Origin: Solobacterium sp.
Lineage (GTDB): Bacteria; Bacillota_I; Bacilli_A; Erysipelotrichales; Erysipelotrichaceae
Length of the DNA: 62,843 nt
Reading direction: 5' to 3'
Assembly (NCBI GenBank): GCA_022486705.1
Contig: JAKVKC010000014.1
Coordinates: forward strand, 1-62,843
Shown here: one piece after another, positions 1-6,384 of the stretch
Numbering within the stretch: the first letter of the stretch is position 1
Layout of the letters: each line of letters begins with the position of its first letter
Made by a program: the position numbers and the translations under genes
Notes under the pieces: generated by a model
The model's input: the letters and a program-made list of their open reading frames with translations, nothing else
Database searches by the model: none
What the model was told of the DNA's origin: nothing

Positions 1-159
1 CAATCAAGTACTTTCCAGTTCTGTATCTGCCTTCAGTAATATATGCATAAAGAAAACCAGAAGAATTTCTTCCTCTGGTAAAAGCTTCTTTTAATTAACC
101 TGTCCTTGACTTGGGGTACAGTTTAATCAGTGATTTTTTTTATATCTAAAACACTATCA
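1..159. other. Gene-poor window edge with a possible IS terminus
   Basis: No complete gene is visible. Positions 101-120 read TGTCCTTGACTTGGGGTACA; the reverse complement begins TGTACC and ends GGACA, which resembles the terminal inverted repeats of IS3/IS150-type elements. On the minus strand an open frame runs from about position 107 out of the window, without a start codon. This may be the edge of a decayed transposon, but no second end or transposase motif is in view, so the assignment is tentative. Confidence 0.25.
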
Positions 160-735
160 TCAATAATGGTTACTAGAATAGTCGTCATTTAAGCGTCCTT
201 TCCAATAATTCACAATTTGCAATTGAAACATTAAGCATGTGTTAATCAGCAAAACTAACATGGATGCCTTTGCGTAAGGTAAAGAGAACTGCACAAGTAT
301 CAAAGAAATTCCTAATATGATTATATATGAAATTACTGAGCGTTTCTTATTCTGCACAATCAAATCATTGCAATAATCACTATTAGAAATCATAACAGGA
401 GAATAAATAATTATATAGAGAAATGATACTAAACATAGACAAAACAAGAACACTAAATCAATTGAAAAAGAAAGACAGTATTCAAAAATGCAGAATACTA
501 CTGAGTAGCATACTATACATAACGGAATACTCTTTGCATGCCAACCACCGCTATATTGTCTTAATAATGAGAGCTCGACAATGAATATTGCTCCAATCCA
601 TACATTATGATTCAAGAGAAATGATAGAATAATCACTGGCAGAAAATCGAGTGTATCTAAAAGAATACATAGAATTCCATAATCAAAAGCAGATAATTCT
701 TCAGAGCTAAATAAATGTCTAATATACGCCAACAT
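160..735 (-). CDS. agrB: AgrB-like accessory gene regulator membrane peptidase
   Basis: A 191-residue, strongly hydrophobic protein with about five or six membrane segments. The family signature is present: R59, G63-G64, H66 and C73 in RQYSGGWHAKSIPLC. The His-Cys spacing of seven matches the catalytic pair of staphylococcal AgrB (His77/Cys84). AgrB proteins cut the C-terminal tail of an AgrD precursor in the membrane and help cyclise it. Its natural substrate here is probably the divergent small ORF at 865-1026. No agrC/agrA sensor genes are inside the window, so whether this is a full quorum-sensing system cannot be told. AT-rich, unlike the neighbouring pst genes, which fits an acquired island. 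Confidence 0.82.
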   Translation of the reverse strand: MLAYIRHLFSSEELSAFDYGILCILLDTLDFLPVIILSFLLNHNVWIGAIFIVELSLLRQYSGGWHAKSIPLCIVCYSVVFCIFEYCLSFSIDLVFLFCLCLVSFLYIIIYSPVMISNSDYCNDLIVQNKKRSVISYIIILGISLILVQFSLPYAKASMLVLLINTCLMFQLQIVNYWKGRLNDDYSSNHY

Positions 736-791
736 ATCTTTATTCTAAAGCATTAACATATCAATAAAATATTTTTCGCTTCAATTTATCA

Positions 792-803
792 CGGAAATTA
801 CCG
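792..803. promoter_or_regulatory. Small palindrome between agrB-like and agrD-like genes
   Basis: CGGAAATTACCG is a 12-base near-perfect inverted repeat (one mismatch) in the 129-base divergent intergenic region. It could be an operator for either gene. No regulator is known. Confidence 0.2.
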
Positions 804-864
804 ATTCATCATCTAAGTATGGATTCTGATTTTTGATTAACTATGCTATTCATAGGAGGTTTAT

Positions 865-1026
865 ATGAATAACACGTCATTTCGTTTTGTGACAAACATC
901 ATATCAAAAATTGGCAGTTCACAAGCATCAAGAATTTCTTGGCACGCGATGTATCAGCCTAAAATCAGAATCAAAAAGGATGTGGTTGTTATCCATAAAG
1001 CTCACAATAGCCATCAATATAAATAA
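865..1026 (+). CDS. agrD: AgrD-like cyclic peptide precursor (predicted Ser lactone)
   Basis: A 53-codon ORF with a good RBS (AGGAGG at 854-859, 5 bases before ATG). The layout is that of AgrD. Residues 6-17 form an N-terminal amphipathic segment (FRFVTNIISKIG), then a small-residue stretch SSQASR. A five-residue candidate ring S25-W26-H27-A28-M29 follows, then YQPKIR, which parallels the YEPKSP after the CFMFV core in Listeria AgrD as I recall it. Serine replaces the usual cysteine, so the ring would be a lactone, as reported for Staphylococcus intermedius. The C-terminal tail is basic (KIRIKKD) rather than acidic, which is unusual. The ORF is divergent from agrB and 18 bases upstream of the secreted protein at 1045. 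The identification rests on pattern, not on a database match. Confidence 0.6.
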   Translation: MNNTSFRFVTNIISKIGSSQASRISWHAMYQPKIRIKKDVVVIHKAHNSHQYK

Positions 1027-2223: not shown

Positions 2224-3120
2224 ATGAAGATCAATCAGATCATGAAATTATGCTTGACAGGGATCCTGGCAGGTTCTCTGACAGCCTGCAGTGCAGGCAC
2301 ATCCAGCAGCAATGCTTCCGCTTCTTCTGCATCTGCTCTCAGCGGCACCATCAGTGCTTCCGGTTCTTCTGCACTTCTGCCATTGGTACAGGCAGCTGCC
2401 GATGACTTCATGAGCGCGAACCCAGATGTATCGATCACAGCCAATGGCGGCGGTTCCGGCACAGGCCTGAAGCAGGTCGCTGACGGTTCGGTCGATATCG
2501 GCAATTCCGATGTCTATGCGGAAGAAAAGCTGGATGCCGCGCAGGCGTCCACGCTGACCGATCATAAAGTTGCCACGGTCGTTGTTGCAGCGACAGTCAA
2601 CAAATCTCTTGGCATCACCAATCTGACCACGGCTCAGCTTACCGATATCTTCACCGGCAAGATCACCAATTGGAAAGAAGTCGGCGGCAAGGATCTGAGC
2701 ATCATGCTGGTGACTCGTCCATCTTCTTCCGGCACACGTGCTTTATTCAAGAAGTGGGCCATGAACAATACCGAAGAGTCAGGAAGCTCTGCTTTGGAAA
2801 CAGATGACTCCGGTACACTGATGCAGACAATTGCCGACAATGAAGGTGCCATCGGCTATGTCGCTCTCTCCTACCTTGTGAACAATACTTCGGCACAGGC
2901 AGTATCGATCGATGGTGTTGAACCAACGTTAGAGAATACCTATCAGGGCAAATACAATGTCTGGGGCTTTGAACACATGTATACAAAGGGAGAAGCTTCC
3001 GGTGTCACAGACAGTTTCCTGCAGTTCATTTCCGGTGATACTTTCTCCAGCAAGGTCGAAGCAATGGGATACGGCGTCGCTTCTAAAATGAGCGATACAG
3101 CTGTGAAATCCCATCAATGA
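2224..3120 (+). CDS. pstS: Phosphate ABC transporter substrate-binding lipoprotein PstS
   Basis: 298 residues. Lipoprotein signal peptide with lipobox LTAC (Cys22), followed by a Ser/Ala linker. Phosphate-binding-protein signatures are present: SGSSALLPLV, a glycine loop NGGGSGTGLKQV, DIGNSD, and RPSSSGTRALF, which form the phosphate pocket in the family. It is anchored outside the membrane and hands phosphate to PstCA. First gene of the pst operon, with AGGAGG upstream. Its stop overlaps the pstC start by four bases (ATGA), giving translational coupling. Confidence 0.95.
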   Translation: MKINQIMKLCLTGILAGSLTACSAGTSSSNASASSASALSGTISASGSSALLPLVQAAADDFMSANPDVSITANGGGSGTGLKQVADGSVDIGNSDVYAEEKLDAAQASTLTDHKVATVVVAATVNKSLGITNLTTAQLTDIFTGKITNWKEVGGKDLSIMLVTRPSSSGTRALFKKWAMNNTEESGSSALETDDSGTLMQTIADNEGAIGYVALSYLVNNTSAQAVSIDGVEPTLENTYQGKYNVWGFEHMYTKGEASGVTDSFLQFISGDTFSSKVEAMGYGVASKMSDTAVKSHQ

Positions 3121-4094
3121 TCATGACCTCCTATGAAAAAAACATACAGGTCAAAGAATCTCTGAGCGCAAAGCGTAAGAAGAAAACAGATCCGCAGATG
3201 TTCCGCAAGGAAACATTCTGGCGGATCCTTGTTACGATATGCGGCATTGCCATCATTCTATTGACCTTGGCCATCGGAGCCTTCCTGATCTATCAGGGTT
3301 CCGGTACCTTCACAAAATTCGGCCATTCCATCTTTGAATTTCTCTTTTCATCCACTTGGGCTCCGACAGATTCCCCTTCTGCTTCCGGCGGCCAGGTCGG
3401 CGCAGCCATCTACATTGTCGGTTCTTTGGAGACATGCGGCTTGGCTCTATTGATTGCGGTTCCCTTCTCCATTGCAGCAGCTGTCTTTATGACTGAGATC
3501 AACCCTAAAGCAGGTACCCGTCTGTTCCGTCCTGCAACGGAGATCTTCTTAGGCATTCCTTCGATCGTTTATGGCTGGGTAGGATTGACAGTATTGGTTC
3601 CCTTCATCCGCGATGTGTTTCATGCAAGCATGGGAGGATTCTCCGTTCTTGCGGCAGGCATCGTACTAGCCATCATGATCTTCCCGACGATCACAACATT
3701 ATCAGCAGATGCCATTCTGAGTGTTCCGGATTCCTATCGCAAAGCAGCGTACGGCCTTGGCTCAACGCGCTGGCAGGTCATTCATCATATCGTTATTCCT
3801 GCCGCTTTCTCCGGCATTCTTACCGGTGTCATTCTCGGTCTCTCCCGTGCCTTTGGCGAAGCATTGGCAGTCGCCATGGTCATTGGCAAGACGCGTGCCT
3901 TTGCGTCCAGTATCCTGGATCCGACAACGAACCTGACAGCCGCGATTGCTTCCGATATGGGCAACACAGCCAATGGCGGTGAATACAATCTCGCCCTCTG
4001 GTCAATGGCTCTGCTGCTGTTCATTCTATCTATTCTTTCCATCATCCTGATCCATGCCATTGCCCGGCGAAAGGAGAAAGTCTATGGTGCGTAA
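3117..4094 (+). CDS. pstC: Phosphate ABC transporter permease PstC
   Basis: 325 residues with six membrane segments. The binding-protein-dependent permease region contains the EAA-type loop (RKAAYGLGSTRWQVIHHIVIP) that contacts the PstB ATPase, then GLSRAFGEALAVAMVIG. It forms the channel with PstA. Starts at the ATG overlapping the pstS stop; a second in-frame ATG six bases later is also possible. It ends 11 bases inside pstA. Confidence 0.95.
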   Translation: MIMTSYEKNIQVKESLSAKRKKKTDPQMFRKETFWRILVTICGIAIILLTLAIGAFLIYQGSGTFTKFGHSIFEFLFSSTWAPTDSPSASGGQVGAAIYIVGSLETCGLALLIAVPFSIAAAVFMTEINPKAGTRLFRPATEIFLGIPSIVYGWVGLTVLVPFIRDVFHASMGGFSVLAAGIVLAIMIFPTITTLSADAILSVPDSYRKAAYGLGSTRWQVIHHIVIPAAFSGILTGVILGLSRAFGEALAVAMVIGKTRAFASSILDPTTNLTAAIASDMGNTANGGEYNLALWSMALLLFILSILSIILIHAIARRKEKVYGA

Positions 4095-4977
4095 TTCTTC
4101 CAGCATTCAAAAAGCAAAACGAGAAGATTCCTTCATGACCGGTCTCTTCTACGGCATCGGCGGTTTCTTCCTTGTCCTGCTGCTGTTCTTGGCCGGATAT
4201 ATTATCATCAAGGGTCTGCTCTCCTACTATCCTGGTCTGTTCTCCTTTACCAAAGCCGGCATCGGCAATCAATTGTTCAATACCGTCTATCTTGTTTTCC
4301 TCTCATTAGTGATCTCTGTACCGCTCGGTATGGCAGCCGGCATCTATATGGCAGAATACGCCAAGGAAGGCAGACTGCTGCGCTTCCTGCGTGTATGCAT
4401 TGAATCATTATCTTCTCTGCCTTCGATCGTCATCGGCTTATTCGGCTATCTCGTCTTCATCCTGATGACTGGCATGCAATGGAACCTGATGGCCGGTGCA
4501 CTCGCCGTCAGTATTCTTTCCCTTCCCTCCATTACTACAACGACTGAAGATGCCATCCGTTCCCTGCCAAAGGGATACAAGCTCGGCAGTATGGCACTTG
4601 GTGCTACGCATTGGCAGACCATTGTCAAAGTCCTGATTCCGACTTGTACTTCAAGGATCATGACCGGTGTCCTGCTGACGGCCGGCAGAGGCTTTGGTGA
4701 AGCAGCTGCCCTGCTGTATACCGCTGGGCAGAGCACCAATATCAACTGGTCCAACTTCAATATCACTTCTCCTACCTGTCCTTGGAATCCCTTCCGTCCT
4801 GGCGAAACATTGGCTCTGCATATCTGGGTCATGCGCACCGAAGGAAGCCTGAATGTCCATGCGACAGATATCGCCAACTTCTCATCCGCTGTCTTAGTCA
4901 TCTTAGTATTATGCTTTTCAATTCTTGTCAGAGTCTTATCTAAACGCTATGAGAAAAAGGTCGGAGGCATCAAATGA
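4084..4977 (+). CDS. pstA: Phosphate ABC transporter permease PstA
   Basis: 297 residues from the ATG at 4084, chosen because AAAGGAG lies 8 bases before it; a longer frame from 4054 has no such signal. Six membrane segments, a permease loop ([20 protein letters not shown]) and the PstA-typical [18 protein letters not shown]. Partner of PstC in the phosphate channel. Overlaps pstC by 11 bases and pstB by 4 bases (ATGA), so the operon is tightly coupled. Confidence 0.94.
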
Positions 4978-5738
4978 CAGAAATAAATTCATCTCTTTTT
5001 TCCATTCAGCACCTGCAGTTCTATTACGGTGAATTCCATGCCCTGCATGATATTTCCTTAGAGATCCCTGCGCATAAGATCACAGCGCTCATCGGCCCTT
5101 CGGGATGCGGTAAATCGACTTTCTTAAAAACATTGGATCGCATGAATGACTTTGAACCTGGGGTCAAGGTAGAAGGATCCATTCTGATGGATGGCGTTGA
5201 TATCTATCAGGATCTCGATCCTATCGCTCTGCGCCGGCAGGTCGGCATGGTCTTTCAGCAGCCGAATCCATTTCCAAAAAGCATCTATGACAATATCGCC
5301 TATGGTCCGCGCCTGATGGGGATCAAAGACAGAAAGAAGCTGGATGAGATTGTTGAAACAGCCTTGAAGCAGGCAGCCATCTTTGATGAAGTCAAGGACC
5401 GCCTGAAGAAATCTGCCCTTGGACTTTCCGGCGGACAGCAGCAGAGGCTCTGCATTGCCAGAGCCCTTGCGGTCAAGCCGAAAGTCCTGCTGATGGATGA
5501 ACCGACGAGTGCCTTGGATCCGATCGCAACAGCCAAGATCGAAGACCTTGTACAGGAATTGAAAGAAGAATATACCATCCTGATCGTTACGCATAATATG
5601 CAGCAGGCTGTACGCATCTCCGATCAGACCGCCTTCTTCCTATTGGGAGATCTAATTGAAGTCGGTCCGACAGAGCAGCTCTTCTCTACACCGAAGCAGA
5701 AAAAAACGGAAGACTATATTACGGGGAGGTTCGGATAA
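4974..5738 (+). CDS. pstB: Phosphate ABC transporter ATP-binding protein PstB
   Basis: 254 residues. Walker [10 protein letters not shown] at residues 41-49, Q-loop [15 protein letters not shown] (the PFPxSIYDN form is diagnostic for PstB), signature LSGGQQQR, Walker [14 protein letters not shown], and a switch histidine in VTHN. It powers phosphate import through PstCA on the cytoplasmic face. Followed after one base by phoU. Confidence 0.96.
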
Positions 5739-5739
5739 G

Positions 5740-6384
5740 ATGAGAATTCAATATACAGAAGAATTGAATCACCTGAATCAGCAGATGATCGAAATGGGTG
5801 CACTTTGCGAGAATGCCATCACCCACACAGGAGATTCCCTGCTGCATGGCAATCATGAAGAAGCGGAATCTGTTCACCGCATCCATGAAGAGATCCTGCA
5901 GAAAGAAAAAAGCATTGAAACGCTCTGCCTGCGCCTGCTTCTCCAGCAGCAGCCCATGGCCAGAGATCTGCGCCAGATCAGTGCTGCCTTAAAGATGATC
6001 ACTGACATGAAGCGCATCGGTGAAGTGGCCAGCGATACCGCTGATATTATTCTCTACATGCAGCGTTTTCATCGCATGGAAGATATTGAGGATCTGTGCC
6101 AGAAAGCTGTCATGATGGTCCATCAGGTCATTGAATCCTTCGTGAAACAGGATCTGACAGAAGCAGAATCCGTCATTGCCTATGACGATATCGTTGACGC
6201 TCTCTTTGTCAAAGTAAAGCAGGATCTTGTTCAGGCAATTCAAAAGAACCCGCAGTACGCGGATGACTATGTCGATCTGCTCATGATTGCGAAGTACTTT
6301 GAAAAGATCGGCGACCATGCAGTAAACATCAGCAAGTGGGTCGTCTACTCTATGACGGGAGAGCTCAAGGAAACTGCTGTCTGA
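5740..6384 (+). CDS. phoU: Phosphate transport regulator PhoU
   Basis: 214 residues from the ATG at 5740 (RBS GGGGAGG at 5723-5729; a longer upstream frame overlapping pstB is unlikely). All-helical with two PhoU repeats. Metal-binding family motifs EVASDTADI (first half) and EKIGDHAVNISKW (second half) are present. PhoU links the Pst transporter to the PhoR kinase and restrains uptake when phosphate is plentiful. Last gene of the pst operon. Confidence 0.93.
   Translation: MRIQYTEELNHLNQQMIEMGALCENAITHTGDSLLHGNHEEAESVHRIHEEILQKEKSIETLCLRLLLQQQPMARDLRQISAALKMITDMKRIGEVASDTADIILYMQRFHRMEDIEDLCQKAVMMVHQVIESFVKQDLTEAESVIAYDDIVDALFVKVKQDLVQAIQKNPQYADDYVDLLMIAKYFEKIGDHAVNISKWVVYSMTGELKETAV

Follow-up and report, generated by a model that had tools for sequence, protein, structure and literature searches.

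The window analyzed here is the whole of contig C14 (62,843 bp), one of 40 contigs in a 2.08-Mb draft genome of Solobacterium sp., and the region studied covers approximately its first 6 kb. An agrB gene (160-735, minus strand) is separated from the contig start by 159 bp and stands head-to-head with an agrD-type gene for a signal precursor (865-1026, plus strand), the two start codons being 129 bp apart. Three plus-strand genes with good ribosome sites follow the intergenic region (736-864): the AgrD-type ORF, a gene for a 202-aa secreted protein (1045-1653), which starts 18 bases after agrD, and a gene for a 126-aa small hydrophobic membrane protein (1666-2046). The initial annotation had described agrB and agrD and overlooked the operon that contains the other two genes. 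Beyond the agrD row, genes resembling a pst phosphate uptake operon with phoU were recognized by eye at 2224-6384.

The AgrB protein (191 aa) matched PF04647 with 68.6 bits (E = 5.6e-19; curated cut-off 23), which makes it a member of this Pfam family and bears out the AgrB-type protease with a His66/Cys73 motif that had been annotated. Of 106 AgrBs, 104 have His and 105 have Cys in the columns aligned to these residues, which are seven apart. We take His66 and Cys73 to be the catalytic residues. No PDB sequence resembled AgrB at E ≤ 10, and the viral contigs gave no AgrB match.

The AgrD-type ORF encodes 53 aa and is preceded by an AGGAGG ribosome site at 854-859. As annotated, it lies head-to-head with agrB and contains SWHAM followed by YQPKIR; it is a short ORF beside agrB in which Ser25, the first residue of the predicted ring SWHAM, stands where Cys, Ser, or Thr is expected, five residues before an aromatic-Q/E tail (position -5). 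The proposed search with TIGR04223 gave a divided answer: the ORF was the best match in the genome (E = 0.02; the second match, at E = 1, has an internal stop), but its score of 17.5 bits (E = 0.0035, over 29 of the 38 profile positions) lies under the curated cut-off of 19. The same loose limit produced matches in 10 of 14 control genomes, none above the cut-off. When a profile was built from the genus, using 23 AgrD-type ORFs but not that of the window, the window ORF outranked all other segments of the window (1773 in total; E = 4.1e-5; the next, 0.074). With a profile of the 13 divergent-type ORFs only, it ranked second (E = 0.12), which weighs against the explanation that we prefer.

A second natural version of the window AgrD, P0002, is 85% identical and has the same ring core; it changes mainly at both ends, leaves FRFVTNIISKIGSSQASRISWHAMYQP unchanged, and scores 13.8 bits on TIGR04223, also below 19. 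Judged from sequence alone, the evidence for AgrD identity is moderate, and the place and orientation of the ORF add to it. We conclude that AgrB and the 53-codon ORF are real and together make up an agr locus. An ordinary codirectional agrBD was considered and rejected. Nor is this a single agrBDCA operon in the staphylococcal style: agrD is divergent in the window, and the relatives are ordered agrB-agrA-agrC.

The occurrence of AgrB in the genus was limited to 16 of 70 genomes, with 31 matches. Twenty-nine loci were analyzed, a partial match inside the L067 stretch and the broken copy of G048 being omitted. An AgrD-type ORF was present in 27 of them, with Ser at position -5 in 25, Thr in two, and Cys in none. 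The 17 AgrDs encoded on the strand opposite to agrB all had Ser; the 10 codirectional ones comprised eight Ser and two Thr types. The two loci without an AgrD were L071, which begins about 95 bp before agrB, and L070, where no ORF had the motif. This comparison upholds the annotated Ser-type AgrD in a divergent layout, and the suggested check on S25 and YQPK came out positively, since the relatives retain Ser (or Thr) at -5 as well as the aromatic-Q/E after it.

In the other genera of the order, 100 AgrB matches were tabulated and 80 loci analyzed, of which 42 had no AgrD match. The remaining 38 carried 24 Ser, 12 Cys, and two Thr types, counts that lean toward Ser: the AgrD profile was seeded by genus sequences drawn with a pattern permitting Cys, Ser, or Thr, and these all proved to be Ser or Thr, so that the Cys types of the other genera are probably more numerous than counted. 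Eight weaker matches (E from 0.011 to 0.8) were left uncounted, the Cys-type L119, L143, L148, and L155 and the Ser-type L107, L120, L121, and L126. The counted AgrDs do not all adjoin agrB (L059 and L062 are about 2.1 kb away and L158 1.9 kb). In nine of the 12 Cys-type loci agrD was divergent, eight times at 772-857 bp from agrB and once at 196, and divergence as such is therefore not unique to the Ser class. The initial annotation had presented Ser as an unusual ring closer. It is not exceptional, because 24 of the 38 loci outside the genus carry it and Ser lactones are known: the excerpted text of PMC12312760 lists Ser rings for S. pseudintermedius, E. faecalis, and C. difficile agr2. The TIGR04223 family itself can hold Ser-type members, as a Ser-type AgrD (L134 type) found in a different family of this order scored 31.3 bits, above the cut-off that the window ORF and P0002 fail to reach. 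AgrD-like ORFs in which Thr replaces Ser/Cys at the ring-closing position were also seen in L060, L063, L131, and L132.

In an AgrB tree of 106 rows, midpoint-rooted so that a group is one side of a branch, 21 rows formed a group with support 96/88. Nineteen of them have a divergent Ser-type AgrD, the window included, and the others are L070 and L071. Two divergent-Ser rows, L113 and L164, were placed outside the group, and the AgrBs of L081, L128, and L129 were dropped as too short. The group was kept when the tree was rebuilt minus nine rows, namely L103, which the window row joined via long branches, and eight others; it then had 19 rows, 17 of them divergent Ser, with support 99/89. Two features of the window AgrB weigh against the preferred explanation: only one end branch in the group is longer than its own, and its identity to any row does not exceed 29%. 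Within the 21-row group agrA directly follows agrB in 18 rows and agrC is present in 17; some of these loci also served as input for the profiles behind these counts. The exceptions are L068, which has neither receptor gene, L073 and L078, which reach contig ends, and the window, which is cut by an insertion sequence. We conclude that the divergent layout is a class of agr loci. Seven other AgrDs of this class were compared with TIGR04223; one scored 12.3 bits and six gave no match, all below the cut-off.

The intergenic regions of the class contain direct repeats spaced by 21 bp. When 15 regions were pooled (three near-duplicates dropped; L059, L062, and L128 outside the set), the summed best match at this spacing was 128, against 98.4 ± 3.7 in 100 shuffled sets, the highest of which reached 114; other spacings from 12 to 39 gave 89-105. 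LytTR regulators bind 9-bp repeats with mostly 12 bp between them, according to the excerpted text of PMC6193735, and the 21-bp spacing matches that arrangement. The window copy (736-864) holds a weak pair: its best match is 8/11 at spacing 20, which taken alone is not beyond chance and weighs against the explanation that we favor.

The initial annotation reported that agrC and agrA were absent. This absence is an artefact of an insertion sequence (IS) at the contig edge. Bases 1-127 of the window are identical on contig C25 and bases 1-125 on C6, and the window start (1-125) was recognized as an IS end because these copies all finish with one shared terminal sequence (TAAACTGTACCCC on the minus strand); the contig break falls within the element. 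The adjoining 126-188 (minus strand) is the 5' fragment of agrA, a LytTR response regulator gene. Its 21 codons are cut by the IS and aligned to residues 3-20 of the L065 agrA (50%, E = 0.001; database of 14). The agrA start overlaps the 3' end of agrB, which links the two genes; agrA begins inside the window before the IS cut, and a locus lacking receptor genes was considered and rejected.

The end of contig C32 bears the same terminal TAAACTGTACCCC, and adjoining it are the remaining 215 aa of a LytTR regulator and then a histidine kinase. The regulator part aligns with relatives from about residue 24 (in L078, query position 4 corresponds to subject position 24). The pieces on C14 and C32 are thus contiguous in the alignment, and each adjoins an identical IS terminus. 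The three bases flanking the IS match between the two sides, which resembles a target-site duplication but would occur by chance once in 64. Since the start of agrA is on C14 and the rest on C32, both at an IS end, we infer that agrA was interrupted by the IS and that the assembly broke within it. The two contigs would then join here, and agrC, on C32, most likely lies across the break from agrB. An IS insertion together with a contig break can thus mimic a quorum system without receptors.

Contig C2 of the same genome carries another agr locus, which is complete and includes a divergent AgrD. We considered and rejected a Cys-type AgrD encoded elsewhere as the partner of the window AgrB. A scan of genome contigs for the window locus matched only a broken sister copy, the agrB of G048. 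This genome, given as the same genus, retains an agrB fragment only (L028/L084), which has frame breaks and is about 96% identical at the DNA level along some 335 bp; by eye, it lies between an istA/istB-like ORF pair and a transposase-like ORF. The second agr locus of G048 is likewise complete. Of the named relatives, the nearest found was the MAG Erysipelotrichaceae bacterium AS4GglBPBL_16, which has the same broken agrB as contig C161 of G048.

The 202-aa protein has a signal peptide, a hydrophobic Gly-rich stretch, and a C-terminal GPADGGWFDP; here and below, signal peptides were judged by eye and from hydropathy. Three homologues were found among 5.8 billion proteins searched. In 315 genomes of the order, full-length relatives occurred in three others, and any match at all in 11, its own genome included. 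The protein had no Pfam match, a weak match to a PHROG without an assigned function (E = 0.0025), and, in the viral contigs, a match over 17 residues at one locus. An AlphaFold model made from four sequences was useless (mean pLDDT 44.7).

The 126-aa protein was assigned to the membrane from hydropathy, and its Pfam matches were all sub-cut-off. In G207 a homologue of it follows the secreted-protein homologue (30%, E = 5e-5), and in G117 a weaker relative does so (E = 4e-4 over 20 residues); the small membrane protein in the same place in G265 has no detectable similarity to it. The divergent-class AgrD profile gave no match near the secreted-protein homologues of these three genomes in the stretch examined. 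Judging by these neighborhoods, the 202-aa protein seems to be a secreted protein that has a fixed partner and was brought under agr control, and the 126-aa protein is possibly its immunity or export partner.

Taken together, the locus is very probably an agr quorum-sensing system arranged in two divergent rows, one with agrB-agrA-agrC and one in which agrD precedes the genes for the secreted protein and then the small membrane protein. In the mechanism that we propose, AgrB would cut AgrD after Met29, and the hydroxyl of Ser25 would close the five-residue lactone SWHAM. The trimmed peptide would be exported and sensed by AgrC, and phosphorylated AgrA would bind the shared intergenic region and activate both rows, which would make the signal and the secreted protein increase together at high density. 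With agrA interrupted by the IS, the window copy is probably signal-blind: it can probably still make the signal and not answer it, unless the complete C2 locus answers.

Several other explanations were weighed against this reading. The cut agrA, the sister G048 with nothing but an agrB fragment between transposase-like ORFs, and the complete second agr locus in both genomes would all suit a decaying or orphan locus, where agrB and agrD are relics of IS attack and no active signal is made. Yet agrB, agrD, and both downstream genes are open, the agrD side has good ribosome sites, and the variation of P0002 falls mainly at the ends and spares the ring core; we regard decay as rather unlikely. 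For the downstream pair, a bacteriocin-like effector with its immunity protein, placed under quorum control, is a candidate reading, though we would sooner bet against it. The signal peptide and the Gly-rich hydrophobic stretch fit such an effector, as does the recurrence of the pair in G207, and more weakly in G117, with no divergent-class AgrD found nearby; the lack of a Pfam match, the low pLDDT of the structure model, and the downstream membrane protein of G265, not detectably related, speak against it.

The ring might also be larger, closed by another Ser (e.g., SRISWHAM), or the pheromone might be linear. Several Ser residues do precede YQP, and the excerpted text of PMC12312760 describes a nine-residue Ser ring in E. 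faecalis, but the -5 residue is Ser or Thr in all 27 AgrD-bearing loci of the genus and the alignment shows no conservation of the window Ser at -8, which makes this improbable. Less probable still is that AgrB processes the AgrD of another locus and that ORF 865-1026 is a chance ORF or simply the leader of the secreted protein. The TIGR04223 score under the cut-off and the weak score against the divergent class alone would agree with this; on the other hand, the ORF is the best match in genome and window, its place and orientation are correct for the class, its core is conserved in P0002, and the one other AgrD observed in the genome is paired with an adjoining AgrB. We therefore retain the divergent agr locus with a five-residue Ser lactone as the preferred reading.

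Like the agr system of S. aureus, this locus would combine AgrB, a cyclic peptide precursor, and AgrC/AgrA, with AgrA sites between two divergent transcripts, as described for P2/P3 in the excerpted texts of PMC4227749 and PMC12312760. The S. aureus locus consists of agrBDCA plus RNAIII, whereas here agrD is on the transcript opposite agrB, the secreted protein occupies the position of RNAIII, and agrA precedes agrC in the relatives. The window AgrD further differs from that of S. aureus in having Ser for Cys and a basic tail. Closer in ring structure are the S. pseudintermedius AIP (STGFF) and C. difficile agr2 (SSWVA), five-residue rings beginning with Ser as predicted here; their loci appear in the excerpted text of PMC12312760 as agrBDCA and agrB2D2C2A2. 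The Enterococcus faecalis fsr/GBAP system shares the Ser lactone (PMC12312760, in excerpt) and differs in its nine-residue ring and in fsrD lying inside fsrB (PMC12312760, PMC3673130, both in excerpt). A literature search on AgrD, lactone autoinducers, divergent agrBD, and Erysipelotrichaceae, covering titles and abstract openings, with preprints and most subscription papers outside its scope, did not find the class. What is new is a layout variant of the agr locus, in which Ser is usual for its kin and receptor genes are not lacking. This divergent class has Ser or Thr where Cys is usual, and its tested AgrDs all fall below the standard cut-off.

The signal gene of this class often precedes a secreted protein. 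In the window, L067, L076, L081, L102, L103, and L104, the divergent agrD is followed by a gene for a protein that resembles, by eye and hydropathy, a signal-peptide-bearing protein or a lipoprotein; in L068 such a protein is encoded 617 bases away. Directly after agrD, no gene of exported type was seen in, for example, L080, L082, and L064. In L081 and L102 (/L233) a second agrD occurs further along the same strand, which suggests tandem signal-cargo units.

The most novel point, found in relatives only, is the fusion of AgrD cores to exported proteins. In L069, L078 (= L239), and L128 (= L237), a single ORF next to agrB encodes AgrD joined to a protein of exported appearance. Fused copies with no adjacent agrB occur in G051 (L221:8747-9532) and in G034 (L230:4368-5051), a genome without an AgrB match. 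The L069 fusion and the metagenomic P0006 have different AgrD cores and the same remainder; as G051 holds a P0006-like core elsewhere, a chimeric assembly could account for this exchange. P0007 shares its linker and signal peptide with L069 and P0006 and has another core and another cargo, the latter being similar (27.7% over 256 residues, E = 4e-17) to the cargo encoded separately in L081. P0008, which is not fused, is related to the L069 cargo (32%). No cargo protein matched a Pfam family above its cut-off.

We tentatively suggest, as a doubtful generalization at this stage, that the AgrD of this class acts as a leader for quorum-controlled secreted proteins, with an exchangeable core placed before an exchangeable cargo, separate or fused. 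If so, one cut by AgrB would both start signal formation and free an exported cargo with its signal peptide, and the fusions in relatives would make this possible coupling of AgrB processing to protein release testable. Two minor observations concern these genomes. In the genome of L128 (G206), agrB lies in two overlapping frames, as if broken (L237:6918-7480). In G051, a stop codon separates an AgrD-like stretch from a cargo at L222:360-1265, in the manner of a decayed fusion.
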